From assembly GCF_014803405.1 (NCBI RefSeq), contig NZ_JACYFG010000051.1, forward strand, positions 186,001-250,000: DNA of 64,000 nt, written 5' to 3'. Below the pieces are notes generated by a model. It was not told the DNA's origin. It did no database searches and worked only from the letters and a program-made list of their open reading frames with translations. Source of the DNA: Pelagicoccus enzymogenes. GTDB lineage: Bacteria; Verrucomicrobiota; Verrucomicrobiia; Opitutales; Opitutaceae. A program made the position numbers and the translations under genes. This document shows, piece by piece, positions 5,344-47,968 of this stretch (the stretch's first letter is position 1; every line of letters begins with the position of its first letter).

Positions 5344-6882
5344 ATGGTTTGGGCAAAGAAGTTGGGATGGCTTGCGGCTGCGTTTGTTTTGTTGGCGAAT
5401 TCGATTTTTGCAGCTTCAGGCGATGAGCTTTGGAGCTTCGAGACGGGCGACCAGATTTTTGGGTCGCCGACCCTAGACCGGAACGGCAATGTCTATTTCG
5501 GAAGCCGTGACAACTTTGTATACGCCTTGACGGGAGAGGGGGAGCTCCGTTGGAGCTTCGAGGCAGGGGATTGGGTCGACTCTTCGCCGACCTTGAGCTT
5601 TGACGAGAAGACGCTCTACTTCGGATCCTGGGACAACAAGATGTATGCCGTGTCCGCGGAGTCGGGCGCCCTGCAGTGGTCTTTCGAGGCCAAGAACCTG
5701 ATCGTGGCCTCTCCGTCCTTGGACGCGCAGGGGAATTTGTTTTTTGGGGCCTCGGACGGTTTTTTCTATTCGCTGACCGCGCAAGGCGAACTGCGCTGGT
5801 TCTACTTTGTGGGAGAGGAAATGGATTCGTCTCCTGCGATTGATGGATCGGGCAACGTCTACGTCGGAGCCTTCGACGGGCAACTGTACTCGTTCTCCAA
5901 CACGGGAGAATTGCGCTGGAGCTACGCCACCGGGTTGGATGTGGAGGAAGGGGACCGACGTATCAAGTCTCCTCCTACCATTGGCGAGAACGAAGCTGTC
6001 TATGTAGGAGGCGGGGACGGACGGCTGTATGCGCTGACGCTTGACGGGCAGTTGCTATGGCAGTTTCAGGCTCCGGAGAAGGTGGACACCGGGATTGCGG
6101 TCCGGGAGGACGGAAGCCTGGTTTTCGGAAGTCGCGATGGCTTCGTTTACGCTCTCGACGAAAACGGGGTCTACCTTTGGGAGAGCTATGTGGGAGACAT
6201 CTTTTATTCCACGCCTGCGGTGGACCGGGAAGGCGGTATTTACGTGGGATCCTACGTTGGAAATGGAGTGAGCGGGATCAGCGCTCTCTCGGAAAGTGGT
6301 GAGCTGGTATGGGAGTCATTGGTTCTTGGATACATCGACTCTTCTCCCCTGCTCAGTGGGGAGGGCCGCTTGTACTATGGTTCCTATGACGGCGCCTTCA
6401 GGGCGATCGAAGCAGACGTTCAGCCAGCGATATCCGTTTGGAACCGATTCGGGGCCGGACGGGCAAACCAATCCCTCTTCATCGATTTTCTGCTGAGCCA
6501 GGATTTTGAAGCGTGGCTGGCCGAAGAGGGCTTGGAATCCTACAAGGCGAATCCCTATTCCGATCTGGATGGAGATGGTTTCACTCTCTTTGAAGAGTAC
6601 TATTTTGGGGGCAATCCATCTCTGCCGGACGCAAGCCTGCTCGCCTTCCAGTGGACGGGCGCGGACTTGCAGCTGCAGTTCGTTCGGCTGGACCAAGCGG
6701 TGAGCCCTTACGTTTTTCATCTGGAAATTTCCAGTGACTTGAAGGCATGGATGCCGGTCGAAGCGGTGACCGAGGTGATGCTGGAGGAAAGCGTCGCAGG
6801 TGAATCCCGCTACGACAAGGTCCAGCTGGTCCTGCCCCAAGGTGCCTCGGGGAGCGCTTTCTATCGGTTGCGGGTTTTTTAG
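5344..6882 (+). CDS. Exported PQQ-type beta-propeller protein with Ca-binding-like tail
   Basis: This is a 512-residue protein with an N-terminal signal peptide (cleavage near FAAS). GAGGAG just upstream, overlapping the end of the kinase gene region, supports the ATG at 5344. Eight repeats of about 40 residues follow the pattern (E)LxWSF..G....SSPTLD..GNVYFGS.DG.xYAL, consistent with an eight-bladed propeller of the PQQ/BamB repeat type. Residues from about 370 hold DLDGDGFTLFEEYYFGGNP, a calcium-loop-like motif often seen near the C-terminus of secreted Verrucomicrobia proteins, then a beta-rich end. Catalytic PQQ residues cannot be assigned, so it may be structural or sensory. Placement directly after the kinase suggests a link to signal perception. 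Confidence 0.82.
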   Translation: MVWAKKLGWLAAAFVLLANSIFAASGDELWSFETGDQIFGSPTLDRNGNVYFGSRDNFVYALTGEGELRWSFEAGDWVDSSPTLSFDEKTLYFGSWDNKMYAVSAESGALQWSFEAKNLIVASPSLDAQGNLFFGASDGFFYSLTAQGELRWFYFVGEEMDSSPAIDGSGNVYVGAFDGQLYSFSNTGELRWSYATGLDVEEGDRRIKSPPTIGENEAVYVGGGDGRLYALTLDGQLLWQFQAPEKVDTGIAVREDGSLVFGSRDGFVYALDENGVYLWESYVGDIFYSTPAVDREGGIYVGSYVGNGVSGISALSESGELVWESLVLGYIDSSPLLSGEGRLYYGSYDGAFRAIEADVQPAISVWNRFGAGRANQSLFIDFLLSQDFEAWLAEEGLESYKANPYSDLDGDGFTLFEEYYFGGNPSLPDASLLAFQWTGADLQLQFVRLDQAVSPYVFHLEISSDLKAWMPVEAVTEVMLEESVAGESRYDKVQLVLPQGASGSAFYRLRVF

Positions 6883-34897: not shown

Positions 34898-36361
34898 CTA
34901 GAGGTCGATGCCTTGGCTCTGGAGGGTGCTGCCTTTGACTTGGTGGTAACGGGCTACGGCGATGTTGTAGTTGGCGATCGATTCGAGCTCGCTCACTTGG
35001 GCGGCGGTAAGGTCCTCTTGGGCTTCAAGCACGAAGAAGGTGGTGCTTTGCCCGAGGTTGAGCTTGCGTTCTTCGGCTTCGAGGGAGCGTTCGGCGAACT
35101 CGCGACCTTGGCGGGCAAGCTCGCGGCTTTGGGCCTCGGACTCGATGCGGCGGGCGGCGTTGTCGAGCTGGATCGCGATGGCTTGCTGGAGCTGCTGGCG
35201 CACGAGGTGGGCTCTGTCTTTGAGGAGGCGGGCTGCAGCTCGGTCTGCTCCGGCGCTGCGGTTGAGCAAGGGGCGGCTGAAAGTGACGCCTACGAAAAGG
35301 TCGGTTTCGGCGGAGCTGAGTCCTTTGTAGCTGGAGGTGAAGGAGTCGCCGAAACTGGTGCGGAAGTAGCGGGCGTTGAGGTCGAGGGAAGGAAGCGCCC
35401 CGCTGTTGGCCGTTTGCTCGTTGATGACCGCTTTTTCGATCTCGAGCAGGGCTTGTTGGTAGTCAGGACGGTTCTGCAGGGCGTATTCAAAATCTTGGCT
35501 CAGGTTTCCGCTCCAATCTTGGGGAGCGGGCATGGCGCCGATCTCTACCTGCCAGTCGAGCAAGGGTAGCGCTTCGTTGGATACGAAACGTTTTAGTTCG
35601 TTGAGGGTGTCGAGATAGAGGCGTCGCTGCAGCACGACGTTGGCTTCGCGTTGGGCGAGGCGGGTCTCGGCGACTTCTACGCCTCGGGCTTCGATTGTTC
35701 CAAGCTCGGCTCGTTTGCGGGTGTCGGCTACCAGTTGGCTGGCGAGCTGGCGGGATTGCTCTGCGACGCGTAGTGAGTCCTTGCGCAGGGCGGTTTGGTT
35801 ATAGAGGGTGATGGCGTTGGTGACGGTGGTGATGGCTTGCAGGCGGAAGCTTTGCTCGGACTGCTGGTAGCTGCGTTGGGCGATCTTAATGAAGCTGCGG
35901 GAGTTGGCTCCGAAGTTTTTTAGCAGCGGTTGGTAGAGGGCGATGCCGGCGTTGGCCGCGTGAGTATCGGGGCCGCCGAAGTTGTTCTCGAAGCGACCGG
36001 TGGCAGCGTCGAGGGTGAGGCGTCCACCGGTGGGAATATTTTGGGAGATGGAGGCGGAGCTGACCTCGCCTTCCTGGGAGTTGAAGGACGAGGAGGCTCC
36101 CCCGCCGCCGCCTAGGGCTCCGTCGGAATGAGTGGCACCGATTGCGGGATCCCAGTAGCCGCGGGTGCTCCTCAGGTTTTGAGCGGACACATCCTTGTCG
36201 AGCTGCACGATGCGGATCTGGAAGTCTCGCTGGAGAGCGAGGGCGATGAGGTCCGGCAAATCGATCTCCTCGGGCACGTTGTCGGCGGCCCGCAGGGGGG
36301 GCAGGGCGAGGATGAGAGAAAGCAAGAGGGTTGAAGGACGAAAGGTAAAATTGCGTGTCAT
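34898..36361 (-). CDS. TolC-family outer-membrane efflux protein
   Basis: About 487 residues from ATG 36361, which begins a signal peptide (MTRNFTFRPSTLLLSLILALPPLRAAD); the frame is open to 36652 but that part is not family-like. The mature protein shows the two long helical repeats of the outer-membrane-factor family (IDLPDLIALALQRDFQIRI; RPDYQQALLEIEKAV; helical ELARQGREFAERSLEAEERKLNLGQ), forming a trimeric tunnel. It is the last gene of adaptor-ATPase-permease-TolC, which together would span both membranes. Confidence 0.9.
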   Translation of the reverse strand: MTRNFTFRPSTLLLSLILALPPLRAADNVPEEIDLPDLIALALQRDFQIRIVQLDKDVSAQNLRSTRGYWDPAIGATHSDGALGGGGGASSSFNSQEGEVSSASISQNIPTGGRLTLDAATGRFENNFGGPDTHAANAGIALYQPLLKNFGANSRSFIKIAQRSYQQSEQSFRLQAITTVTNAITLYNQTALRKDSLRVAEQSRQLASQLVADTRKRAELGTIEARGVEVAETRLAQREANVVLQRRLYLDTLNELKRFVSNEALPLLDWQVEIGAMPAPQDWSGNLSQDFEYALQNRPDYQQALLEIEKAVINEQTANSGALPSLDLNARYFRTSFGDSFTSSYKGLSSAETDLFVGVTFSRPLLNRSAGADRAAARLLKDRAHLVRQQLQQAIAIQLDNAARRIESEAQSRELARQGREFAERSLEAEERKLNLGQSTTFFVLEAQEDLTAAQVSELESIANYNIAVARYHQVKGSTLQSQGIDL

Positions 36362-36437
36362 TTTATGGGTCCCAGGTACCGGGATTTTGCGGAAATCGAT
36401 GAGTGGATCGGCTTGGGAAATGTGATCGGGTTGATGC

Positions 36438-36462
36438 GGACGGCGTGGAAGCCGTCCCTCCA
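36438..36462. repeat. GGACGGC/GCCGTCC repeat (TCCCTCCA family)
   Basis: GGACGGC-GTGGAA-GCCGTCC followed by CTCCA is a perfect 7-bp hairpin in the gap between permease and TolC genes. Related copies lie at 38966-39010, 46323-46380 and 16241-16275. Confidence 0.55.
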
Positions 36463-36468
36463 TTTGAG

Positions 36469-38925
36469 CTAGTCGCCGCGGAGGGTTTCGCTGAGGTTGG
36501 TGTTTACGACGTAGCGGGCCGGGGTGTAGATGGCCGCTGCAGAGACGGCAAGAATGAGGGCGATCGGGAGGAGGAAGATGAGGGGATCGGCAGTGGGCCG
36601 TGCCATCTGGTTTTCGGCCATGATGCCGAGTATGGCGTAGCCGAGGGCGCATCCCAGTCCGAGCCCGAGGGCGATTTGCCAGCTGCTCATCTTGAAGATA
36701 TGGCGGAAGATGGTGGCGGGCCCAGCTCCAAGGGCCTGGCGAATGCTGAATTCTTGGAAGCGTTGGCGTATCGAGAAATCCATGACGCCGTAGATTCCAA
36801 TGGAGGCGAGGATGAAGGCGGCGATGCCGAACATGCCGAAGAGGTTGCGAAAGAAGATGGGGCCAAACTGGTTTTCTTTGACGGCGGTCTCTACGGTTTT
36901 GACGCGGTAGAGGGCGAAGCTCTGGTCCTCCTCGTGCAAGATGGAACGGATGTGGCTGGCTTGCTCGGTGGGATTGCCGTTGGTCTTGGCGAATACGGTT
37001 ACATTGGCTTGAGGGTCGCCGCTCATGGGGCGGTAGACGCCGCCGAGCTGCTCGTCAGTCTGGTTGGCTCCGGGGCCAGCCATCTTGGTGTCGGGCACGA
37101 TGCCGATGATGGTGAACCAGGGGGTGCTGTCGGAGTACTCGTCGCGCAGTTGCTGGCCGATGGCGTCCTGGATGTTGTCGGGCCAAAGGCGTTTGGCGAG
37201 GAGCTCGTTGATGACGCATACCTTTTCGGCGTTGGGACCTTGGTCGAGACGTTCGAAGCCGCGACCGTAGAGGATGGGGATGTCGAGCAGTTCGAAGTAG
37301 TTGTCGGAGACGATCTCGTTGCGGGCGCGGAGCTCTTCGCCTTCGGGCACGGCCCGTCCGCGGACTTGCCAGCGGGAGTTCCAGTTGTAGAGCATGTCGA
37401 CGGAGCTGGTGAATCCGACGCCTTCGAGGGCGGGATTGTTTTCCATGAGCGTTTGCAGTCGATCGAGTCCGGCGGCGCGTTGGTCGCCCGGGTAGTAGTT
37501 TTCGGGCAGGTCGAAGCGAGCGGTCATGACTTTGGAAGGGTCGTAGGGCGGCTCGAACACGGCGGCGTCCTTGGCGCCGCTGACCATGGCGGAGGTGGCG
37601 ATGAGCAGGGCGCAGGAAACGGAGAGCTGGGCGAGCACGAGCAGCTTTGAGAAGATGCCCATCTTGAGGCTGGAGGCTCCGCGCGAGTTGTCCTTGAGGA
37701 TTTCGTTGACATCCGTCTTGGAGGCGCGAATCGCGGGCACGATGCTGGCGATGATGCTAGCCATGAGGGTGATGAGCGCGAGGTAGCCGACCGTTTGCAG
37801 GTCCACGTCCATGTTCATCCAGATGGGCGGATTGGCTTGTGCGGAGGCGAGCACGGAGGCCCAGATAGCCCGGCTGGTCCAGATGGCGATGATGAGTCCG
37901 CCGAGGCCGCCGAAGAAGGCGATGGCGAAGCCTTCCACGACCATCTGCATGATAAGGCGCTGGCGCTTGCCGCCGAGGGAAGCCCGGATGGCGAGCTCTT
38001 TGACGCGGGTGGTGGCACGGGATAGGGTGAGGTTCGCCACGTTGGTGCAAGCGATGAGCAGGACCATGAGAGAGCAGGCGAGCAAGAGGTAGACCATGCG
38101 GGGAAATTCGTCACCCATGAAATTCTCGCCGAGGGTTTCGATCTGCAAGGCTATGTACCCTGTATTTGTTTTTGGATACGCATCGGCCATGGTTTTCGCG
38201 ATCGTGTTCATGGCTGGGATAGCGGAGCCGAGGGTTTGCCCATCTTTCAAGGTGGCGAGCACGAAGAGACCATCGCCGTCGGCGCGGGACATTTCGACGT
38301 GGTTGGTGGTATCGTTGAGCCAGACGTCGTGGCGTGAGGGGAAGTCGACTCCCTCGGGGGCAACGGCAACGATGGTAGTGGGGATGCCGTTCATGTTGAA
38401 CGATTGGCCGATAACGGACTCGCGGCTATCGAAATGGTTCTTCCAGAGCTTGTAGCTGATGACGGCTTTCTTTTCGGCATCGGGCAGGTCGTCACCCTCT
38501 TGGAAGAAGGTTCCGATGTGGGGTGTGAGGCCGAGGGTTTGGAAGAGTGTTGCGGAGACGTAGCTGCCGTCGAAGCGTTCCGCGTACTTCTTGATGACCA
38601 CGCTGATGGTGGTGTTGGGCCGCATGAAGGCGAAGTGCTCGAAGACGTCCTGCCGCTCTTGCAGTTCCCGGAAGTCCTTGTGGCGAATGAATCCAAACTG
38701 AGCGCCGGACTCCCAGAGGTGCTCGGTGCTGGGGTCCCACTGGATGGCGTAGACTTTGTCGAAGTCGATGTCTTCCGGATGTCCCTTGATCACGCCGAAA
38801 ACGAGGGTGAGCATGAGGCCGACGAGTCCTAGTCCGAGGGAGAAGGCCATGATGGCGAGCAGCATGCTGCCGGGGTTGCGGCCGAATTGGCGGACGCCGA
38901 CTTTGAGATCGTTGGTAAAGGACAT
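36469..38925 (-). CDS. MacB/FtsX-type ABC transporter permease (duplicated domain)
   Basis: About 818 residues from ATG 38925 (MSFTNDLKVGVRQFGRNPGSMLLAIMAFSLG). It contains two MacB-like periplasmic domains alternating with two FtsX permease domains: membrane helix near residues 20-45, periplasmic domain, three helices around 280-420 (LACSLMVLLIACTNVANL; LGGLIIAIWTS), then a second helix-periplasmic-helix set ending GYAILGIMAENQM and ALILAVSAAAIYTPARYVVN. It works with the adjacent ATPase and adaptor to move a substrate out of the inner membrane or periplasm. Substrate unknown. Confidence 0.9.
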   Translation of the reverse strand: MSFTNDLKVGVRQFGRNPGSMLLAIMAFSLGLGLVGLMLTLVFGVIKGHPEDIDFDKVYAIQWDPSTEHLWESGAQFGFIRHKDFRELQERQDVFEHFAFMRPNTTISVVIKKYAERFDGSYVSATLFQTLGLTPHIGTFFQEGDDLPDAEKKAVISYKLWKNHFDSRESVIGQSFNMNGIPTTIVAVAPEGVDFPSRHDVWLNDTTNHVEMSRADGDGLFVLATLKDGQTLGSAIPAMNTIAKTMADAYPKTNTGYIALQIETLGENFMGDEFPRMVYLLLACSLMVLLIACTNVANLTLSRATTRVKELAIRASLGGKRQRLIMQMVVEGFAIAFFGGLGGLIIAIWTSRAIWASVLASAQANPPIWMNMDVDLQTVGYLALITLMASIIASIVPAIRASKTDVNEILKDNSRGASSLKMGIFSKLLVLAQLSVSCALLIATSAMVSGAKDAAVFEPPYDPSKVMTARFDLPENYYPGDQRAAGLDRLQTLMENNPALEGVGFTSSVDMLYNWNSRWQVRGRAVPEGEELRARNEIVSDNYFELLDIPILYGRGFERLDQGPNAEKVCVINELLAKRLWPDNIQDAIGQQLRDEYSDSTPWFTIIGIVPDTKMAGPGANQTDEQLGGVYRPMSGDPQANVTVFAKTNGNPTEQASHIRSILHEEDQSFALYRVKTVETAVKENQFGPIFFRNLFGMFGIAAFILASIGIYGVMDFSIRQRFQEFSIRQALGAGPATIFRHIFKMSSWQIALGLGLGCALGYAILGIMAENQMARPTADPLIFLLPIALILAVSAAAIYTPARYVVNTNLSETLRGD

Positions 38926-38965
38926 ATTTCTGGGAGCTTGTTTTTTGGGGATACAGGAAGTCGGC

Positions 38966-39010
38966 GGACGGCGTGGTACCGAACGAAATGGCACATTCAG
39001 CCGTCCCTCT
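38966..39010. repeat. GGACGGC...GCCGTCCCTCT repeat
   Basis: GGACGGCGTGGTACCGAACG leads to CAGCCGTCCCTCT. The ends form the same 7-bp hairpin as the element at 36438, with a longer loop. It lies between ATPase and permease genes. Confidence 0.5.
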
Positions 39011-39035: not shown

Positions 39036-39743
39036 TTAGTGGACGGCGGGAGCGGTGGCGACGGTCTCGTCCACGACCTTGCCGTCGAAGAGGTGCACGG
39101 TGCGGGATGCTATCTCGTTGTAGCGCTCGTCGTGGGTGACCATGCAGATGGTGGCGCCCTCCTTGTTGAGCTCCTGGAGCATTTCCATGACCTTGGTGCC
39201 GTTTTTGGAGTCGAGGTTGCCGGTGGGCTCATCCGCGAGCAGGATGCGTGGGGTGCCGCCAAGGGCGCGGGCGACTGCGACGCGTTGCTGCTGTCCGCCG
39301 GACAGCTGGTGCGGGTAGTGGTTTTGTCGGTGCGACATCTGCACCTTTTCGAGGGCTTCGACCACGCGGGTTTTGCGTTCGGAGGCCTTAAGGCCGCGGT
39401 AGACGAGGGGAAGCTCGACGTTTTCGTAGACGGTGAGGTCGCCGATGAGGTTGAAGGACTGGAAAATGAAGCCGACATCCAGGTTTCGGATACGGGAACG
39501 CTCGTTGTTGTTGAGGGTGGCGACTTCCTTGCCGGCGAGTGAGTAGGAACCGGAAGAGGGCGAGTCGAGCAGGCCGAGAATGGAGAGCAGGGTGGACTTG
39601 CCGCAGCCGGAGGGGCCGGAGATGGAGAGGAACTCGCCCTCCATGATGTCGAGGTTGATGCCTGAAAGGGCGTGGGTTTCGATCTCGTCGGTCAGGAAAA
39701 CTTTTGAGATGTCAGAGAGGTGGATGAGGGCTTCGGTGTTCAT
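39036..39743 (-). CDS. MacB/LolD-type ABC transporter ATPase
   Basis: This is a 235-residue ATPase with Walker A GPSGCGKSTLLSIL, Q loop IFQSFNLIG, signature LSGGQQQRVAVARAL, Walker B ILLADEPTGNLDS and switch His MVTHDERYNE. The pattern is that of ATPases paired with MacB or LolCDE permeases. The gene lies between the adaptor and permease genes of the export operon. A 180-base gap with a REP-like half element separates it from the adaptor gene. Confidence 0.94.
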   Translation of the reverse strand: MNTEALIHLSDISKVFLTDEIETHALSGINLDIMEGEFLSISGPSGCGKSTLLSILGLLDSPSSGSYSLAGKEVATLNNNERSRIRNLDVGFIFQSFNLIGDLTVYENVELPLVYRGLKASERKTRVVEALEKVQMSHRQNHYPHQLSGGQQQRVAVARALGGTPRILLADEPTGNLDSKNGTKVMEMLQELNKEGATICMVTHDERYNEIASRTVHLFDGKVVDETVATAPAVH

Positions 39744-39924: not shown

Positions 39925-41178
39925 TTATTGGATACGGATTTTGTCGTAGTCGTCCCAATCGGACATGTCTGAAAGGATGACGCGGTCGCCGGGCTGAAGT
40001 CCTTGCACGACTTCGATTTGGCTGACGGAGGCTTTGCCGTAGGTGATGGGGACGCGCAGGGCGATGTCGGAATCGGGAGCGAGCTTGAAGATAGTCATCT
40101 GCGCTTCGGGGCGGCTGGAGGCGGGGCGTTTGACTTTGACGACGTTGGCGAGGCGTTCGAACTCGACGACGCCCTCGACGGTGAGGTCTGGGCGAGCCCC
40201 GTCGGGAAGCTTTTCGCTGAATTTGATGTCGACGGCTACGGTGCCGTTTTCGACGTTGGGATCGACGCGGGAGATTTGGCCGCGGACTTTTCCGTTGCGG
40301 GTATCAACTACGGCGGGGAGCCCGATGATGAGGTCCTTGGCGTTTATCTCTGCGATTCGGACTACGGCTTTGAGGTTTTTCGGGTCGGCGACTTGGGAGA
40401 GGTTTTGTCCTATGCCCACCTGCATACCCTCTTCGACCGTCTGCTTTTGCAACACGCCAGCCACTCCGGCTACCACGGTTAGGCCGTCGTATTGGTCTTG
40501 CAGAAGGTCGAATCGGGCTTTGGCCTGGTTAACCGAGGCTTTTCGCGCAGACAACTGAGTATCCAAATTTTTCTGACTGAACTCGAGGCGTTGGCGCTCG
40601 ATGTCGAGTCGGGTGGTGAGCTGCTCGTGTCGCAGCAAGGAGCGTCGCATTTGCAGGTCCGAAACGAGTCCTTCCTTGTTGAGCTCGGTGTCGATTTCGG
40701 CGTCGAGGGCGGCTTCCTTTTGCTGAGCCTCGAGCTGGGCGAGATTGGCTTTGAGCTGCAGGATGTTGTTTTGCAGCTGGACGTCGTAGGTGAGGTAATC
40801 GGCCTCAGCGGCTTCGAAGGCGAGGCGGGCGTCGAGCGCTTGTTGCTCCAAGGTGGGATTGCTGAGCTCCATGATAGGGGTGTCGGGCTCGACCCACGCT
40901 CCAGGACGCACGATGATACGCTCCACGCGACCGGCGGTTTCGGAGGCGATCCAACGGAGGTCTTCAGGAACGAGGGTGCCGATTCCGCGAGCTTCGCGCA
41001 TCATTTCGCCCTGTTCGACGTCTCCGAGCCAGACTCGCTCCTCTTCGACAGTTGGAGTGGAGACGTCGAGCCCCATGAGCCACCAAACGGCAACGGCTAC
41101 CACGAGAGCAGCGCTTGAGCCGAACAGGATGCGGTTGCGGCGTTTCTTCTTTTTGATGTCGGAGCGTACGATGTCCAT
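39925..41178 (-). CDS. HlyD/MacA-like periplasmic adaptor (membrane fusion) protein
   Basis: This is a 417-residue protein with a basic cytosolic start (KKKKRRNR), one membrane helix near residues 20-37 and a lipoyl/barrel-sandwich part (GRVERIIVRPGAWVEPDTPIMEL). A long coiled-coil hairpin follows (about 105-225: EQQALDARLAFEAAEADY ... LDIERQRLEFSQKNLDTQ), then beta-barrel and membrane-proximal domains. It links the inner-membrane permease to the TolC-like tunnel. First gene of the export operon, downstream of a sigma54-like promoter at 41246-41260 and the palindrome at 41371. Confidence 0.92.
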   Translation of the reverse strand: MDIVRSDIKKKKRRNRILFGSSAALVVAVAVWWLMGLDVSTPTVEEERVWLGDVEQGEMMREARGIGTLVPEDLRWIASETAGRVERIIVRPGAWVEPDTPIMELSNPTLEQQALDARLAFEAAEADYLTYDVQLQNNILQLKANLAQLEAQQKEAALDAEIDTELNKEGLVSDLQMRRSLLRHEQLTTRLDIERQRLEFSQKNLDTQLSARKASVNQAKARFDLLQDQYDGLTVVAGVAGVLQKQTVEEGMQVGIGQNLSQVADPKNLKAVVRIAEINAKDLIIGLPAVVDTRNGKVRGQISRVDPNVENGTVAVDIKFSEKLPDGARPDLTVEGVVEFERLANVVKVKRPASSRPEAQMTIFKLAPDSDIALRVPITYGKASVSQIEVVQGLQPGDRVILSDMSDWDDYDKIRIQ

Positions 41179-41245
41179 GGGAGGGAAGCTGGGGAGGATA
41201 GAGGGTGAGGGATGATAGTTGCGGTCAGTCGTTTCCGTTGTGGTA

Positions 41246-41260
41246 ACACGTGGCGTGCCA
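41246..41260 (-). promoter_or_regulatory. Candidate sigma54 promoter for the export operon
   Basis: On the minus strand TGGCACGCCACGTGT has an ideal TGGCAC at -24, but GT instead of GC at -12. Its -24 GG is 120 bp from the palindrome centre at 41378.5, matching the 117 and 119 bp at the two sister promoters. The leader would be about 57 bases. Confidence 0.5.
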
Positions 41261-41370
41261 TATTGGTTACATAGTGTTTTAAGTCGTTGATTATCAGTTG
41301 TAAAAAATGTTAACCCGTTTCGGTGGGAAAGGCGCGCTCTTTTATCTGTCCCGAAGGCGAGACGGGGGGA

Positions 41371-41386
41371 ATCCCAGTTTTGGGAT
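41371..41386. promoter_or_regulatory. Palindromic activator site ATCCCA-N4-TGGGAT (copy 1)
   Basis: ATCCCAGTTTTGGGAT is a perfect 6-bp inverted repeat with a 4-base spacer, placed between the divergent adaptor operon and ompW-like gene. Copies occur at 44839-44854 and 47953-47968, each upstream of another gene of the same locus. I infer binding by the NtrC-like regulator at 46382. Confidence 0.7.
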
Positions 41387-41429
41387 TGGCGGGAGTGGGG
41401 AACGAAAGGGCAAGGAGTGCGGCATGAGG

Positions 41430-41444
41430 TGGCGTGATGCTTGC
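41430..41444 (+). promoter_or_regulatory. Sigma54 promoter for the OmpW-like gene
   Basis: TGGCGTGATGCTTGC has the -24 GG at 41431-41432 and the -12 GC at 41443-41444, ten bases apart. It lies 53 bp downstream of the palindrome at 41371. The leader to ATG 41544 would be about 90 bases. Confidence 0.72.
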
Positions 41445-41543
41445 GATTAGAGCTGCGAATAGCAGAGAAGGAATCGTCCTCGCTCCTTGACCGAGATCTA
41501 ATGAAGAATAAAAGGTAATTTAATAATCTAAAGATTGCTTATC

Positions 41544-42116
41544 ATGACTAAACCAATAACTTTGATGGCGGCGGCGATGGCTGCTGCGAGTCTTGTTTCC
41601 CCGATCGTTTGGGCAGCGCCTGCTGGAACAATCGAAGTGAAATATCGTATGGCCTACTTGGATACGGCCAATGAATCGGACGCTTTCTCCGCTCTCGGAA
41701 TCGATTTTGCGTCGGATGCGGTAACGGTAGAAAGCAAGTGGATTCCCGAGTTGGACATTGCTTATCATTTCACCGAGAACCTCGTTGGAGAATTGGTTTT
41801 GACCGTTCCGCAAAAGCACGACGTGTATTTAGCGGGAGTGGGTAAACTTGGCAGCTTGGAGCACCTTCCTCCAACCCTGAGCCTCATCTACGAGTTCCAG
41901 AACGAGAGCGGTTTTGTCCCGTACGTTTCGGGAGGTCTGAATTTCACTTGGATCACCAACAAGCGTCTCGCCGTTGCAGGCGTGGAGCTCGACCTTGAAG
42001 ACTACAGCGTCGGCTTGGCTCTGGGGACTGGCTTCAAGTACGAAGTCAACGAGAAGTGGGACTTGGATGCGAGCGTTAAGTGGATTGACCTAGAATCGGA
42101 TGTGATGGCTGGGTGA
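41544..42116 (+). CDS. OmpW-family outer-membrane protein, interrupted by in-frame TGA
   Basis: This 190-residue product has a signal peptide (cleavage near VWAAPAG), an internal TTG start at 41535 being less likely. Family markers are clear: TVPQKHDVYLAGVGKLGSLEHLPPTL is split here as VGKLGSLEHLPPTLSLIYEF, then FVPYVSGGLNFTWI and KWDLDASVKWIDLESDV. OmpW normally ends with a final strand and aromatic C terminus such as LDPWVF..GYRF. Here translation stops at TGA 42114-42116, but the same frame continues with the missing strand (see 42117-42182). The protein as written lacks its outer-membrane sorting signal. It has its own sigma54 promoter within the export locus. Confidence 0.88.
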   Translation: MTKPITLMAAAMAAASLVSPIVWAAPAGTIEVKYRMAYLDTANESDAFSALGIDFASDAVTVESKWIPELDIAYHFTENLVGELVLTVPQKHDVYLAGVGKLGSLEHLPPTLSLIYEFQNESGFVPYVSGGLNFTWITNKRLAVAGVELDLEDYSVGLALGTGFKYEVNEKWDLDASVKWIDLESDVMAG

Positions 42117-42182
42117 GCTCGTTTGACCACGGCTAAGCTAGATCCGCTTCTTTGGAGCTTTGGCGCTTCGTATCGATTCTAG
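42117..42182 (+). pseudogene. Stranded C-terminal strand of the OmpW-like gene
   Basis: Directly after the TGA, in the same frame, the sequence encodes ARLTTAKLDPLLWSFGASYRF and then TAG. This aligns with the usual OmpW end, including the final aromatic Phe. One base change would restore a 212-residue protein. Confidence 0.75.
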
Positions 42183-42223
42183 CAGTACGAAAAAGAATTC
42201 CCCTTCGTTTTATATTCCAGACG

Positions 42224-42252
42224 GGCTGCCTTCTTCGGAAGGCAGCCTTTTT
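42224..42252. terminator. Intrinsic terminator between convergent genes
   Basis: GGCTGCCTTC-TTCG-GAAGGCAGCC is a perfect 10-bp stem with a stable TTCG loop, followed by TTTTT. It ends the OmpW-like transcript; on the other strand an A-rich flank makes it less effective for the convergent permease gene. Confidence 0.9.
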
Positions 42253-42274
42253 CGGCTTCGCCGCTATCGGTCCG

Positions 42275-44668
42275 TCACTCTAAACGAAGGGCGACGGAAG
42301 GAAGGATCTTGCTGGCGGTGGTGGCGGGCCTCCAGCAGGCGGCGAGGGTGATGAGCAGGGTTAGCAAGCTGACTACTGCAAGGACGATGGGGTCGTAGGG
42401 CTCCACTTGATACAGGATGAAAGCGAGGTAGCGACCGATTCCAATTACGGCTACGATGCCGATGACTAAGCCAATCGCAGTTAACTTGAGCCCGCGTTTG
42501 AAGATCATGCCCACGATTTCGTTGGGCAGGGCGCCGATCGCGAGGCGGATTCCGATCTCTCGGTTCCTCTGCTCGACGAGGTAGGACATTAGGCCATAGA
42601 TGCCGGTGGCGGCGAGGATGATGGCGATGCCTCCGAAGATGCCGATAAGGGTGACCATGATGGTGCGGCCTTGCAGGGACTGTTTGACTGCTTGTTCCAG
42701 GGTTCTTACGCGGTCGATCGGTTGCTCGGAATCGACGGCAAGGACGGCTTCCTTTATCTGGTCCGTGAGCTGAAGGGGAGGTAGTTGCGTTTTGACTACA
42801 TAGCTCGTATGCCAAGGCCACTGAATCATCGGCTTGTAGACCATGGGTTGTTCGCCGCTGTCGAGGCTGAATCGGCTGATGTTTCCGACGACTCCTACGA
42901 CCTGCCATATCTCGTTGTCGTGGTGAATCATTTGCCCGAGCGGGTCGAGCCCGTCCTGAAACTTGTCCTCCACCACCTTTTGATTGATGACGACGACCTT
43001 GGGCGAATCCGGTTGCTGGTCGCGTTCGTCGAAGATACGGCCTTGTAGCAGCGGGATGCCCAGCGTCTTGAAGAGGTTTCCGTTGACGGAATCGAAACCG
43101 GTGAAGTAGGAGTTCGCCGTGTCAGGTTGGTCGTCTCTCCAGAAAGGGGCGCCGAAGAACTGGTTGCCGTTCATGGGGGTGGAAGATACCATCGCGACGC
43201 TTTCGACCCCGGGCAGCTCTCCGATTCTTTCGATGACGGCGCTGGAGAAACGGGTTCTGTCCTCGGGAGTGGGAGAGCGAGTGCCGCTGCGTTCGATCTC
43301 GAATGTGAGTACGTTTTCGTCGCTGAAGCCAGGGTCGGTTTCGAACGCCTTGAGCGAGCTTTTCAGTAGTAGTCCTATGGATACGAGTAGCACCACGGAT
43401 AGGGCGATCTCGGCGACGATGAGGGTGGACTGTAGCTTGTTGCCTTTGGCGCTGGTTGCGGAACGGGTCGAGTCCCGCAGGGCGGCGGCGGTGTTGAGGG
43501 TTTTGAGCGCGGGAAAGATTCCGAAGAGGATGCCGGTAAAGATGCTGATTGCTAGGGTGAAGAGGAGCACTCGCAGGTCGATGGACAGGTCGATGTTTGG
43601 CAGCTCTGCGAATCCGACGAGCTTGGCGAGTGGTCTGAGGGAAACGATGCCGATGAGCAGGCCTATGGCGGCTCCGACGAGGGAAAGCATGGTGCTCTCG
43701 ACGAGGAGCTGGCGCACGATTTGCCAACCGGAAGCTCCCACGGAGGTGCGCACAGCGATCTCGCCTTGACGGGCGGTCGCGCGGGCGAGCAAGAGGTTCG
43801 CTACGTTGGCGCAGGCCACGAGGAGCACCATGGCGACTGCGACGAGAAGGATGACGATGTAGGGGGTGGAGGAACCGAAGTAGGCGTCTTGCAGGGTGCG
43901 CACGGCGATGGTCCACTCCTTCATCATGTCAGGGTATTGCTCGTTGAGGCTGGCTTTGATGGCTTGCAGCTCTGCGGTCGCAGTGGCGGGGGTCGCTCCC
44001 TCTTTCAGTCGGCCGACGATGGAGCAAACGTAGTCGTACTTTCGCAGCTGCTTCCATTCGTTGGCCGCGATGGCGGCGGGCACGAGGAAGTCGACGCCAG
44101 TCGTCATGAACGTATTCGGCTTCAGAATACCGGAAATGGTGTAGCTCTGGTAATCGAGAGTGATGTTGCTTCCGACGATGGTTGGGTCCTCGCCGAATTG
44201 CGTCTTCCAGGCTGAATCCGAAAGCAGCACGACGCGATTGTTGCCTCCAGCGCTATCGTTTTCGGGCGTTATATCTTGGCCGAGGGCGACGGAAAGTCCG
44301 AATATTTGTAGGTAGGAGGCGGATACTTCGTAGCCATTGAGGCGAACAGGTTCTTCGATTCCGGTGAGATTGAGGCTGAGGTTGCGGAGGACGCTGAGGC
44401 TTTCGAATTGCTCGCTGGCGTTTTCGATATCGAGGAAGATGCCTCCGCTCATGGGGGCGAACGCGTTGGGGCCTTGGCCGGTGTCGAGATTGAGTTGTAC
44501 GATCTGGTCGGATTGCTCGTAGGGCAGGGGCTTGAGCAGGAGGGCGTTGATGAGGGAGAAGATGGCGGTATTGGCTCCGATGCCGAGGGCGAGGGTGATG
44601 GCTGCGAGCAGGGTGAAGCCGGGCGAGCGGACGATTTGTCGGAAGGAGAAGCGGAGGTCGTTAAGCAT
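42275..44668 (-). CDS. Second MacB/FtsX-type permease (duplicated domain)
   Basis: This is a 797-residue protein starting MLNDLRFSFRQIVRSPGFTLLAAITLALGIGANTAIFSLINALLL, the classic start of MacB-PCD/FtsX duplicated permeases. It has two repeats of helix, periplasmic domain and three helices (VACANVANLLLARATARQGEIAVRTSVGAS; REIGIRLAIGALPNEIVGMIFKRG). It is not next to its own ATPase, but has a promoter and palindrome of the same type as the export operon, so it may share the ATPase at 39036 or work alone. Confidence 0.9.
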   Translation of the reverse strand: MLNDLRFSFRQIVRSPGFTLLAAITLALGIGANTAIFSLINALLLKPLPYEQSDQIVQLNLDTGQGPNAFAPMSGGIFLDIENASEQFESLSVLRNLSLNLTGIEEPVRLNGYEVSASYLQIFGLSVALGQDITPENDSAGGNNRVVLLSDSAWKTQFGEDPTIVGSNITLDYQSYTISGILKPNTFMTTGVDFLVPAAIAANEWKQLRKYDYVCSIVGRLKEGATPATATAELQAIKASLNEQYPDMMKEWTIAVRTLQDAYFGSSTPYIVILLVAVAMVLLVACANVANLLLARATARQGEIAVRTSVGASGWQIVRQLLVESTMLSLVGAAIGLLIGIVSLRPLAKLVGFAELPNIDLSIDLRVLLFTLAISIFTGILFGIFPALKTLNTAAALRDSTRSATSAKGNKLQSTLIVAEIALSVVLLVSIGLLLKSSLKAFETDPGFSDENVLTFEIERSGTRSPTPEDRTRFSSAVIERIGELPGVESVAMVSSTPMNGNQFFGAPFWRDDQPDTANSYFTGFDSVNGNLFKTLGIPLLQGRIFDERDQQPDSPKVVVINQKVVEDKFQDGLDPLGQMIHHDNEIWQVVGVVGNISRFSLDSGEQPMVYKPMIQWPWHTSYVVKTQLPPLQLTDQIKEAVLAVDSEQPIDRVRTLEQAVKQSLQGRTIMVTLIGIFGGIAIILAATGIYGLMSYLVEQRNREIGIRLAIGALPNEIVGMIFKRGLKLTAIGLVIGIVAVIGIGRYLAFILYQVEPYDPIVLAVVSLLTLLITLAACWRPATTASKILPSVALRLE

Positions 44669-44716
44669 GGGAGCTTGGTTGGATTATTGGACGAAGGACG
44701 AGAGTGGAAGAGATTA

Positions 44717-44731
44717 TCAGGTATTGCGCCA
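44717..44731 (-). promoter_or_regulatory. Candidate sigma54 promoter for the second permease
   Basis: On the minus strand TGGCGCAATACCTGA has TGGC at -24 and GA, not GC, at -12. Its -24 GG is 117 bp from the palindrome centre at 44846.5. The leader would be about 38 bases. Confidence 0.45.
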
Positions 44732-44838
44732 GTGGTCGCTGGGGCGGTGTAAGCTTTTGTTTGTCAGACTGATAAAAGATCGGGGAATTTCGAGGTCACC
44801 AAGCCCGGTTCGATGTTCTCAAGTTTGGGATGCAGCGG

Positions 44839-44854
44839 ATCCCAAAATTGGGAC
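44839..44854. promoter_or_regulatory. Palindromic activator site (copy 2)
   Basis: ATCCCAAAATTGGGAC has the same arms and spacing as the sites at 41371 and 47953; an extra half site TTTGGGA lies at 44824-44830. It is upstream of the second permease. Confidence 0.68.
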
Positions 44855-44922
44855 GCTGGTGGGATGGGAGGCCCGTGGAGAGGGCGCTTCTGCTGGTCGG
44901 AACAGGGCCTCCGCGTGAGGGC

Positions 44923-46290
44923 TTACTGAGCCTTGGCTTGAGGTGCGATTCCCAGTTGGATGGTCACGCGACAGCCGGAGCGGTCTTGGCGGTTTGCGAG
45001 GGTGAGAGTACCTCCGACGGCTTCGATGATTTGCTTGCTGAGGGCGAGGCCGATACCGCTTCCTTGTGCCTTGGTGGTGTAGAAGGGGACGAAGAGGTTG
45101 TCCGGATTGGAGATGCCGGGGCCGTCATCTTCGATGCGCAGCAAGGAGATGCCGGCGATGGCTTCGATGGAGCAGGTGACGCTGCCGGGGGCGCCGCTGG
45201 AGGCTTCGGTGGCGTTCTTGAGCAGGTTGATGAGGGCTTGCTCGAATTGCGCTGGATCGATGGATACGGTGGGGTTGGAGGACGAGGGAGCGAAATGGAC
45301 CGTTTCGCCGAAGAGCTGGCAGGCTTTTTGGAAGAGAGGCGAGAGGGCGACGGAAACGGTTTCGGGCTCCGGAAGTTTGGCGAGCCGGGTGTAGTCGCCC
45401 ATGAAGCGGATGATGTTTTGGGAACGGTTGGTGATGGTTTCGAGTCCGTCGAGCAGGTCGGTCTTGGTTTCCTCGTCGATCTCGGCGGTCTTGGTGATTT
45501 TGGAGAGGGTGGAGGAGAGGGACGAAATGGGGGCGATGGAGTTGTTGAGCTCGTGACCGAGCACGCGCAGGAGGCGTTTCCAGGAGTCGCGCTCTTGCTC
45601 GGAGGCGGCTCGGGTGATGTCGGTGAGGAGGATGAGGTCGAAGCGTTCTCCATCGAGGATGAAGATGCCACGGCGGCCCTCGAAACGACGGTTTTGGTCG
45701 ACGAAGGAGAAGCGTGAAAAATCCTGGGAGGACTGGTCGAGCACGAAGGAGATGTTGAGCTCGTCGACGGTTTTAAGCTCGGGAATGGAATCCCAATGGT
45801 TAATGGAGGAGATGAGCCTTCTGGCGGCTTCGTTGGCCTGTGATACGACCCGATCTGAGCGCACGATGAGAGTGGCGACATCGATATTGGCGGTAATCTT
45901 GTCGATTACTTTTTGGGTTTCGATGCTGGTGAGTCGCGACTTCTCCATGAGCGCGGCGATGGCGTTGATTTCTTCATACAGCTCGACGATGGTGCCGGAG
46001 GCCTCGGAGATGCGGCGGGACCGAAGGGTAAAGTCGCCCTCTCGGATGGAGCTAATGACGTTGGCGGCGACGCGGAGGGGGCTGCTGATCCAGTTTTGCA
46101 GGCTCCATGCCATGAAGGGAAAGGGCAGGAGGATGAGGGTGAGGCAAGTGACCCAAAGCTCCCAGTTGGCGTCGGAGTGGATGAGCAGCGCCACGGCGAT
46201 GACCGTGGCGGGCAGGGCGCAGAGGGCGGCCCGGATGACGATGGTCGCCTCGTAGGAGAAACGGGAGGGGGTGCGGGGAGGTTGGGTCAA
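44923..46290 (-). CDS. NtrY-like sensor histidine kinase
   Basis: This is a 455-residue protein, TTG start at 46290 (no better ATG seen). It has two membrane helices near residues 18-65 with a very short loop, a HAMP-like segment (SPLRVAANVISSIREGDFTLRSR), and a PAS-like domain (about 125-215). The kinase core follows with H box RVLGHELNNSIAPISSL, N box NLLKNATEAS, G1 box EDDGPGIS and G2 box GSGIGLALSKQI. The ELNNSLxPI type of H box is typical of NtrY-like kinases that partner NtrC-type regulators. The regulator gene lies 91 bases upstream in the same direction. Confidence 0.92.
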   Translation of the reverse strand: MTQPPRTPSRFSYEATIVIRAALCALPATVIAVALLIHSDANWELWVTCLTLILLPFPFMAWSLQNWISSPLRVAANVISSIREGDFTLRSRRISEASGTIVELYEEINAIAALMEKSRLTSIETQKVIDKITANIDVATLIVRSDRVVSQANEAARRLISSINHWDSIPELKTVDELNISFVLDQSSQDFSRFSFVDQNRRFEGRRGIFILDGERFDLILLTDITRAASEQERDSWKRLLRVLGHELNNSIAPISSLSSTLSKITKTAEIDEETKTDLLDGLETITNRSQNIIRFMGDYTRLAKLPEPETVSVALSPLFQKACQLFGETVHFAPSSSNPTVSIDPAQFEQALINLLKNATEASSGAPGSVTCSIEAIAGISLLRIEDDGPGISNPDNLFVPFYTTKAQGSGIGLALSKQIIEAVGGTLTLANRQDRSGCRVTIQLGIAPQAKAQ

Positions 46291-46322
46291 GGGATGGTGA
46301 AAGGTGGAAGATTTGCTCGAGT

Positions 46323-46380
46323 TGATGCGGACGGGGTGGTGCCGAGCGGAGCGACACGTTCACCTGTCGCTCCAGGTTTG
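46323..46380. repeat. Repeat with perfect 9-bp hairpin between regulator and kinase genes
   Basis: GATGCGGACGGGGTGG precedes GGAGCGACA-CGTTCACC-TGTCGCTCC (46348-46373), then AGGTTTG. It shares its left end with the element at 36431 and its right part with the element in sufU. Confidence 0.55.
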
Positions 46381-46381
46381 C

Positions 46382-47752
46382 CTATAAGCCGTAGCGTTGC
46401 ATGCGACGGTAGAAGGCGGAACGGCTGAGGCCGAGCTCTTTGGCTGCATCGTTGGCTTTGCCGCCGCAGCGGGAAAGGGTACGGCGGATGAGGTAGGCTT
46501 CGACCTCCTCGAGACTCATGTCGTCCAGGTTGCTGCTGGCGGGACTGGCGGTATTGGCGCGCAGTCCCAGTTCGGGGACGCCGATCTCCTCTTTGCGGCT
46601 GGTGAGGACGGCCCGTTCGAGGCAGTGGTCGAGCTCGCGGATGTTGCCGGGCCACTCGTAGCTTTTCATGGTGTCGAGGGCGGTGGCGGAAAACGCGAGG
46701 CCGGACTTGCGGTATTTCTTCGAGTATTTCTTGAGGAAGGAGTTGGCGAGGGGCTCGATGTCTTCCACGCGTTCGCGCAGAGGCGGGAGGTGGATGGTAA
46801 TGGTGTTGAGGCGGTAGAGCAGGTCCATGCGGAAGCGACCGGCGTCGACTTCGGCTTGCAGGTCGGCGTTGGTGGCGACCACGAGCCGCGCATCGAATTT
46901 CTGGGTACGGGATGAACCTACGCGTTCGAACTCTCGAGTCTCTAGGGCGCGGAGCAGCTTTTGCTGTTGGGCGACGGGCATGTTGGCGACCTCGTCTAGG
47001 AATAGGGTCCCGGAGGCGGCGAGCTCGAAACGGCCGATACGGTTCTCCTTAGCGTCGGTGAAGGCCCCTTTGACATGCCCGAAAAGTTCGGATTCGAAGA
47101 CTCCATCCGGTATGCCTCCCATATTGACTGAGATAAAGGGGTGGTCCGCTTTGCCGGACTGCTGGTGTATTAGGTTTGCAATGACGCCTTTGCCGGTGCC
47201 GTTTTCGCCGGTGATGAGAATGGACGCGTCGGAGTCGGCCACGGATTCGATGAGTTCGAGAACGGGGCGCATGGCCCGTGACTGGGCGATGAAGCCGGAA
47301 GCCTTGTTGGGACGGAGGGTACGGTTTTCTTCTTTGAGCCTCTGGGATTGGAGCTGGGCTTGGTTGAGGCGTAGCTGCGTGCGCACGATGGCGAGCAGGC
47401 GCTCGTCGTCCCAAGGCTTTTGTAGGAAGTCGTTGGCCCCGTTTCTCATGCACTCTACAGCGACGTCGATACTGGCCCAAGCGGTCATCACGACGACAGG
47501 CAGGTCGGGTTCTTTCTCGCGAATCTTGCCGAGGAGTTCGATGCCTTCCTTGCCGGAGGTGGTATCCAGGTGGTAGTTGAGGTCGATGAGAGCGGTGGCG
47601 TATTCGTTTTGCTCGATGCGCTTGAGGGCGTCGGCGGGGTTGCTCACGCAGTCGGCCTGATAGCCCTCGGATTTCAGGGCGAGGCGGATGGCCTGGAGCA
47701 CGTCCTTGTTGTCGTCCGCGATGAGGATTCGCTGAGTCGCTGTATTTGGCAT
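46382..47752 (-). CDS. Sigma54-dependent response regulator (NtrC family)
   Basis: This is a 456-residue activator. The receiver has acidic pair IADDNKD, phosphorylatable Asp in ALIDLNYH and Lys in FLQKPWDD. The AAA+ domain has Walker A GENGTGKG (Gly where Thr is usual at the end), sigma54 loop GAFTDA, Walker B GTLFLDEVAN and the arginine-finger region FRMDLLYRLNTITIHLPPLRER. The Fis-type helix-turn-helix is at the end (GGKANDAAKELGLSRSAFYRRM). It is inferred to bind the three ATCCCA-N4-TGGGA palindromes, one of which lies upstream of itself, giving autoregulation. Confidence 0.94.
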   Translation of the reverse strand: MPNTATQRILIADDNKDVLQAIRLALKSEGYQADCVSNPADALKRIEQNEYATALIDLNYHLDTTSGKEGIELLGKIREKEPDLPVVVMTAWASIDVAVECMRNGANDFLQKPWDDERLLAIVRTQLRLNQAQLQSQRLKEENRTLRPNKASGFIAQSRAMRPVLELIESVADSDASILITGENGTGKGVIANLIHQQSGKADHPFISVNMGGIPDGVFESELFGHVKGAFTDAKENRIGRFELAASGTLFLDEVANMPVAQQQKLLRALETREFERVGSSRTQKFDARLVVATNADLQAEVDAGRFRMDLLYRLNTITIHLPPLRERVEDIEPLANSFLKKYSKKYRKSGLAFSATALDTMKSYEWPGNIRELDHCLERAVLTSRKEEIGVPELGLRANTASPASSNLDDMSLEEVEAYLIRRTLSRCGGKANDAAKELGLSRSAFYRRMQRYGL

Positions 47753-47828
47753 TTGGATAACCGGGGGATGGGGGCGAGGAGGAAGGTTGAAATAAAGGGG
47801 CTCTGAGCTGCTGTGATAGAAGCTGCTA

Positions 47829-47843
47829 TCATTTCACGCGCCA
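47829..47843 (-). promoter_or_regulatory. Candidate sigma54 promoter for the regulator-kinase operon
   Basis: On the minus strand TGGCGCGTGAAATGA has TGGC at -24 and GA at -12. Its -24 GG is 119 bp from the palindrome centre at 47960.5. The leader would be about 66 bases. Confidence 0.45.
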
Positions 47844-47952
47844 ATTGTATTTTGCTTACGAGTAAATTACTGAAGTTCAATTGTTTATGTTTTCGATTGG
47901 CAGCGCGTCCTTGTTTTGCCCGGGAAGGCGTACCGAAAACGGCACGTCGCTG

Positions 47953-47968
47953 ATCCCAGTTTTGGGAC
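47953..47968. promoter_or_regulatory. Palindromic activator site (copy 3)
   Basis: ATCCCAGTTTTGGGAC is identical to copy 1 except for the last base. It lies upstream of the NtrC-like regulator and 82 bp before the isomerase-like gene on the other strand. Confidence 0.7.

Follow-up and report, generated by a model that had tools for sequence, protein, structure and literature searches.

The window studied here is a stretch of 64,000 nucleotides from Pelagicoccus enzymogenes (assembly GCF_014803405.1, contig NZ_JACYFG010000051.1, positions 186,001 to 250,000), and it carries the genes of a response regulator, a histidine kinase and the parts of an exporter. One palindrome occurs before three of these genes, and the question raised by the locus is whether the genes form one regulon, and which regulator and which polymerase would control it. 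The sites, their spacings, the -24 elements and the gene content can be read from the sequence and from its conservation. On this basis, we consider it very probable that the locus is an autoregulated NtrC-type two-component sigma54 regulon, in which the encoded regulator acts on three promoters through tandem sites and a bend of the integration host factor (IHF) type. The kinase would phosphorylate the regulator, whose dimers would occupy a tandem pair of palindromes, the strong TCCCA-N4-TGGGA and, 22-24 bp closer to the promoter, its degenerate copy. A bend made by an IHF-like protein, some 31 bp upstream of the -24 element, would let the AAA+ ring touch the sigma54 polymerase. Three promoters would be opened in this way, namely those of the regulator and kinase, of an orphan ADOP permease, and of the adaptor, ATPase, permease and TolC genes, which are probably co-transcribed.

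An earlier note on this DNA had reported ATCCCA-N4-TGGGAY at three places, and all three were found exactly as described (Table 1). It also proposed a scan of the whole genome. In 6.2 Mb, the motif occurred at three places, all in the locus, and the reversed control gave none. The relaxed form TCCCRN4YGGGA was found at 39 places (13 for the control). When it was combined with TGGCR-N7-TG 95-114 bases downstream, there were four places in the genome and none for the control; three of them are this locus and one lies on contig C37. The C37 match was rejected as a regulon site, because it lies inside an open reading frame (ORF) and a near-identical match is present in a congener without the regulator (G180). 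Thus, apart from this single match inside an open frame, the full arrangement in this genome is limited to the locus. Meanwhile, a scan of the window alone with two mismatches allowed gave 14 palindrome matches, and 9 of 100 shuffles reached 14, which is not beyond chance; the strength of the palindrome therefore lies in its exact form and its conservation. One palindrome with a single mismatch was seen within the regulator gene, at 46565.

The near-equal distances between palindrome and promoter were also borne out. From the palindrome centre to the T of TGGC they are 118, 115 and 117 bp at sites 1, 2 and 3, and the values of 120, 117 and 119 given before fit a measurement to the middle of TGGC. 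The -24 element is present at all three promoters of the window, and a -12 GC at none of the three. In addition, the paired upstream sites lie about 100-150 bp upstream of the predicted start, and the regulator has a receiver, an AAA+ sigma54 domain and a Fis-type helix-turn-helix (HTH), both as in the NtrC family.

To see how far the arrangement is kept, we compared 177 genomes of the order Opitutales. A regulator of at least 55% identity was listed in 17 of them (partial in G063). This line for an orthologous regulator was set after the list had been seen, and the difference in the recognition helix agrees with it. The identity is 84-90% in Pelagicoccus sp. SDUM812002, P. mobilis and strain DG1235. 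Of the 17 regulator genomes, 16 contain the compound pattern (palindrome + N95-114 + TGGCR-N7-TG), with 52 matches against 0 for the reversed control; so do 17 of the 160 genomes outside this set, with 17 matches and 4 for the control. The 52 matches comprise 16 in the regulator locus, 34 remote sites, the one on C37 and one at G147:C209. Furthermore, TCCCR-N4-YGGGA before the regulator, adaptor and permease genes is kept in most relatives with a regulator of at least 55% identity. Five of the eight Pelagicoccus genomes have the regulator at E <= 1e-120 and contain two to four compound matches each, and the other three contain 0, 1 and 1. In these five genomes, the site with its -24 element was found at the adaptor (5/5), at the regulator (4/5, one with a palindrome mismatch) and at the permease behind the kinase in all four that have one there. 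For the site survey, L051-L053 were left out as duplicates of L162-L164; L061 and L062 stand outside all counts, and L059, L060, L078-L083 and L085 entered only the palindrome scans and the regulator, kinase and -12 comparisons. Since the arrangement recurs with orthologous regulators, the encoded NtrC-like regulator is the likely binder, as had been suggested. The earlier claim of one closed, autoregulated sigma54 regulon stands for palindrome, spacing and -24 element, which recur together, and is not supported for the OmpW gene discussed below.

The spacing is rigid and falls into two classes. We took 71 sites with at most one palindrome mismatch and TGGCR-N7-TG at 102-121 bp, after two rows had been removed by hand, one because it reads the palindrome pair of its locus in the direction of the other strand (L074 11271) and one because it is off consensus (L063 9663). 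The palindrome centre lies 103-108 bp from TGGC in 40 sites (median 105) and 115-120 bp in 31 (median 117), and no site falls at 109-114 bp. Among the 17 matches in genomes outside the regulator set, seven lie at 109-114 bp, and four of these seven appear to be a single orthologous sequence. The spacing, -12 and second-palindrome counts do not cover promoters that lack TGGC or TG (e.g., L063 8854, L065 18419, L068 17167, L070 4601 and L072 4032). Of 69 sites, 52 have the degenerate palindrome at 22-24 bp on the promoter side of the first, compared with 1-8 of 69 at eight control offsets; sites with a mismatch were excluded from this count.

The IHF core consensus is WATCARNNNNTTR. A similar core was found 30-32 bp upstream of TGGC in the short-spacing group (40 sites, permutation p = 0.0005), in the long-spacing group (18 sites, p = 0.002) and in Pelagicoccus (13 sites, p = 0.0005). 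The permutation test covered a stretch ending before TGGC, and the pattern was chosen after the consensus of the short-spacing group had been seen. For the three window promoters alone, p was 0.097, or 0.008 with a one-base shift allowed, and 11 of the 13 Pelagicoccus sites match at least 7 of the 9 IHF letters at -31 or -32. Together with the core, there is an AT-rich tract near -48. Because core and tract keep their distance to the -24 element in both spacing groups, the extra turn lies between the enhancer and the IHF-like site. In addition, one protein encoded in the genome comes nearest to the IHF models and another to those of HU, and neither reaches the curated cut-off. The earlier note was right about the near-equal spacing, but it had overlooked that a second palindrome and an IHF-like element are present, that the spacing falls into two discrete classes and that the regulon is wider in relatives.

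Several observations weigh against the reading of the locus as an autoregulated sigma54 regulon. The -12 dinucleotide of the 13 counted Pelagicoccus promoters is GA in eight, GT in three and GG in two, and GC in none; a 14th promoter of the genus (L220) has GT. The exact GAFTGA loop is absent from the regulator, and GAFTDA stands in 39 of 39 regulator rows (36 distinct loci). According to the excerpted text of PMC10714721, RpoN was not recovered in a pull-down with VfmH, a GAFTDA regulator of Dickeya. No regulator-side palindrome within one mismatch was found in P. mobilis (L053/L164), no compound match in G062 (regulator 58%), and no convincing local site in the scan of L069, L073, L075 and the short L084. 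Outside both spacing classes lie an exact palindrome with TGGC at 127 bp (L074 8135) and a site with one mismatch and TGGC at 128 bp (L130 1042). For the long-spacing group without Pelagicoccus, a wider stretch gave -11, overlapping TGGC, as the best IHF offset, with -30/-31 next. Furthermore, 18 of the 34 remote sites precede other genes or none assignable, and the sites across relatives are not phylogenetically independent.

The off-consensus -12 positions (GT, GA and GA) had been named as the weak point of the idea. The letters are as reported, and the feature is common to all 13 counted Pelagicoccus promoters; it is therefore a trait of the regulon in this genus and not by itself contrary evidence. 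The -12 count covered 72 promoters and kept L063 9663, and it required TG, so that only the last letter was compared; for the same reason, counts that required TGGC and TG cannot show how often those letters are lost. An altered RpoN was rejected as the cause of the odd -12, because the RpoN box ARRTVAKYREE is identical in 25/25 sequences (25 genomes). The RpoN domain was found in 25 of 25 genomes searched, rpoN is present in this genome, and the HTH core VGVHETT(V/I)SRA is kept in 25/25 sequences but for the residue before it. Meanwhile, the canonical TGGCAY-N5-TTGCW occurs 14 times in the genome (5 for the control), six of them outside a rough gene mask. The RpoN motifs being unchanged and canonical sites being present elsewhere in the genome, the weak -12 goes with the regulon in Pelagicoccus. 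We conjecture that a -12 without C tightens the off-state in this genus. Three of the six sites outside the mask, TGGCAY-N5-TTGCTTAG (L169, L170 and L171; contig C5 of the same genome), stand before genes that look flagellar by eye.

Could the regulator bind the palindromes and yet work with a sigma70-type polymerase or as a repressor, with TGGC unused in Pelagicoccus and the -12 decayed? The lack of GC at -12 in all 13 counted promoters and the GAFTDA loop would suit such a regulator. However, site and TGGC recur at the orthologous promoters of the congeners, as counted above, and the -12 is GC in 55 of the 59 promoters of other genomes, while in Pelagicoccus the GA, GT or GG is followed by T in 13/13. 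In addition, a scan of the region for E. coli-type sigma70 promoters gave 0 matches where 3.1 were expected, and GAFTDA is among the loop variants expected to stay active in the excerpt of PMC4641369. Since the -24 elements are conserved here, sigma54 use is supported, and we regard the sigma70 or repressor alternative as rather improbable. It is still more doubtful that the palindromes are bound by another regulator and that the encoded NtrC-like protein merely adjoins them. Such palindromes can be bound by many factors, but the compound arrangement goes with this regulator (16/17 genomes against 17/160), and four of six loci with another recognition helix have another site. The helix reads SRSAFYRR in 30 regulator rows, and the six loci with 49-52% identity carry SRATFYR(R/K). 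In four of the latter, a pair of T[AC]TCA-N3-TGA[AGT]A sites with a spacing of 21-22 bp precedes a TGGCA promoter and an adaptor or ATPase gene; the first site of the pair lies 104.5-106.5 bp from TGGC in three loci and 112.5 bp in L083. Furthermore, a second regulator in P. mobilis (L166, G178; 55% identity, SRSAFYRR) goes with GTGCCA-N4-TGGCAC at 6497-6512, 94 bp from a canonical TGGCACATCTAATGC (TGGCAC-N5-ATGC). The helix core alone therefore does not fix the half-site, as L166 combines SRSAFYRR with this other palindrome.

A remaining alternative keeps the autoregulated sigma54 regulon and adds the OmpW gene through a close promoter of its own. The full TGGC-N7-TTGC match reported on that side exists, 53 bp from the centre of site 1 to the middle of TGGC (51 bp to its T) and about 100 bp upstream of OmpW. 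It lies about 67 bp closer than the other promoters; at 10.5 bp per turn this makes 6.4 helical turns and no whole number, where about six had been given before. L162 and L164, the two congeners compared, both lack the match at the aligned place and keep the adaptor promoter as well as a TTGAC ... AAAAGGTAATTTAATA block immediately before OmpW. Among the sites listed, scored over 7-330 bp, no other has a top-two match near 53 bp, and that side was not included in the search for IHF-like elements. The stretches of G179 and G181 that were compared gave no OmpW match. Given its absence from L162 and L164, the fourth promoter is probably a chance match, and membership of OmpW seems unlikely.

Two side observations concern the sites of the related regulators. 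The alternative tandem sites lie, in regulator-sense orientation, at L079:7734-7768, L081:7571-7605, L082:7486-7520 and L083:7679-7712, and the -12 is GA, GG, GT and GC, respectively. In L166, a half-matching site stands at 3549 before the second P. mobilis regulator.

The remote sites in relatives give an impression of what the regulon contains there. Homologues of the exporter genes follow 16 of the 34, namely adaptor (3), ATPase (4, two of them as the second frame), permease (6) and TolC (3). The genes at the other remote sites include those of small exported or membrane proteins, TonB_C-like proteins (L129 over and L144 under the cut-off), a DUF6016 protein (L130), an oxidoreductase (L137) and DUF5916 proteins. 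We also noted that three genomes of family f5 (L158, L159 and L160) have the enhancer arrangement before a protein of 752-757 amino acids; L158, the one tested, matches DUF5916. In L148, L151, L135, L141 and L157, enhancer sites stand before small exported or hydrophobic proteins, and the Pfam search of those of L141, L148 and L157 gave no match.

The features of the locus are collected in Table 1. On the minus strand, the order is regulator, kinase, ADOP permease and then the run from adaptor to TolC (41178 down to 34898), with the divergent OmpW gene between. By eye, the first permease starts nearer 38925 than its ORF limit, and the TolC-like ORF, which overlaps that of the first permease, starts nearer 36361. 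The second permease exceeds the cut-off of TIGR03434 and the first does not. Neither is a MacB in the sense of NF007826 (best score 227.1 against 966), the ATPase being separate from the permeases. A terminator scan of the region found no excess (17 against 17.2 expected). As the sigma70 and terminator scans gave 0 promoter-like sites and no terminator excess, the operon ends rest on gene spacing. Aside from this, a 10-bp hairpin with a T-run at 42224-42252, between the convergent OmpW and second permease genes, is probably a terminator; it was seen by eye and not listed by the terminator scan. A further sigma54-activator domain lies at the start of the window (404-883; G000:C50:186404-186883).

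Table 1. Features of the locus (positions in the window)
Feature	Position	Strand	Basis or remark
Upstream activating site, regulator promoter	47954..47967	-	predicted from sequence; palindrome 47953-47968
Second, degenerate palindrome, regulator promoter	47929..47944	-	sequence comparison
IHF-like core, regulator promoter	47863..47875	-	7/9 to WATCARNNNNTTR
Sigma54-type promoter, regulator	47828..47843	-	TGGCGCGTGAAATGAT
Response regulator	46382..47752	-	receiver PF00072, AAA+ PF00158 (217 bits), Fis-type HTH PF02954; GAFTDA loop, recognition helix SRSAFYRR
Histidine kinase	44923..46290	-	PF02518; 2 predicted membrane helices, 7 residues between (simple hydropathy scan); H-box GHELNNSIAPISSL
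Upstream activating site, second permease promoter	44840..44853	-	predicted from sequence; palindrome 44839-44854
Second, degenerate palindrome, second permease promoter	44815..44830	-	sequence comparison
IHF-like core, second permease promoter	44750..44762	-	8/9
Sigma54-type promoter, second permease	44716..44731	-	TGGCGCAATACCTGAT
Second permease, ADOP family, own promoter	42275..44668	-	TIGR03434 815.6 bits, cut-off 622.3
OmpW-family gene, divergent	41544..42116	+	PF03922; regulon membership not supported
Fourth promoter of the earlier note, OmpW side	41430..41445	+	TGGC-N7-TTGC; probably chance
Upstream activating site, adaptor promoter	41372..41385	-	predicted from sequence; palindrome 41371-41386
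Second, degenerate palindrome, adaptor promoter	41346..41362	-	sequence comparison
IHF-like core, adaptor promoter	41280..41292	-	9/9, AATCAACGACTTA; best of window
Sigma54-type promoter, adaptor	41245..41260	-	TGGCACGCCACGTGTT; aligned in 2 congeners
HlyD-type periplasmic adaptor, first gene of exporter run	39925..41178	-	PF13437, PF16576
MacB/LolD-type ABC ATPase	39036..39743	-	PF00005; best NCBIfam model DarD, under its cut-off
First permease, ADOP-like	36469..38994 (ORF limits)	-	TIGR03434 601.2 bits, just below cut-off 622.3
TolC-like outer membrane protein	34898..36652 (ORF limits)	-	PF02321

The kinase offers a hint at what the system senses. By a simple hydropathy scan, 36 of the 37 kinase rows (among them three duplicate loci) have their first two helices separated by 6-16 residues, as in short-loop kinases of the Bce type, and seven rows showed a further weak segment. 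BceS has two membrane helices with hardly any loop. In the BceRS-BceAB system, BceS reads BceAB as part of a flux-sensing module, as described in the excerpt of PMC6978683. A short-loop kinase may read a partner membrane protein in the same way, so by analogy the exporter itself may be the sensor.

Compared with known systems, the locus is familiar in design. It shares with the NtrBC/ZraSR/AtoSC type (features given from general knowledge) the receiver-AAA+-Fis regulator, tandem palindromic sites, promoters of the -24/-12 type, an IHF-like site between them and a site before the regulator's own operon. It differs from this type in the GAFTDA loop, the short-loop kinase, the two spacings about one helical turn apart, the weak -12 in Pelagicoccus and the exporter targets. 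The permeases resemble ADOP (TIGR03434), and adaptor, ATPase and TolC-like parts are present as in tripartite exporters of the MacB/DarBCD type, whereas here the ATPase is separate and the second permease is a solitary gene behind an enhancer-type promoter. The BceRS-BceAB modules (excerpt of PMC6978683) likewise pair a kinase with an adjoining ABC exporter, but here the output is a sigma54 enhancer-binding regulator, adaptor and TolC are present, and contact between kinase and transporter is a proposal. In its two membrane helices with an almost absent loop, the present kinase resembles BceS. Finally, VfmI-VfmH of Dickeya (excerpt of PMC10714721) pairs a kinase with a Fis-family regulator carrying the GAFTDA loop; its targets are different, and the likeness is one of loop and domain type. 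The sigma54 dependence of VfmH is left open in the excerpted text of its paper.

Judged from these comparisons of sequence, the regulon is real and conserved, a classical design with unusual rigidity and unusual targets. A wider picture is possible, and we offer it tentatively. The module would be a circuit that senses its transporter and has sigma54 transcription as its output: the short-loop kinase would read the state of the MacB/ADOP permeases and not a ligand, and the regulator would raise production of the exporter through a rigid enhancer-IHF-promoter cassette, used in two spacings one turn apart across Opitutales. Paralogous modules would have diverged to other half-sites, and in Pelagicoccus the loss of the -12 C would have made the off-state tighter.

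Among the literature matches listed, no title describing the regulon was found. Knowledge of ADOP permeases seems to go little beyond the name of the family, and in the same matches the phrase "duplicated orphan permease" surfaced only in a taxonomic description. Through the enhancer that they have in common, permeases, adaptors, ATPases and TolC proteins scattered over the genomes of relatives are linked to one regulator, and thus the function of these exporter parts becomes testable. In addition, the regulon would provide natural material for studying the sigma54 activity of GAFTDA regulators, how enhancers that work with an IHF-like site are phased on the helix, and how far a weak -12 is tolerated.

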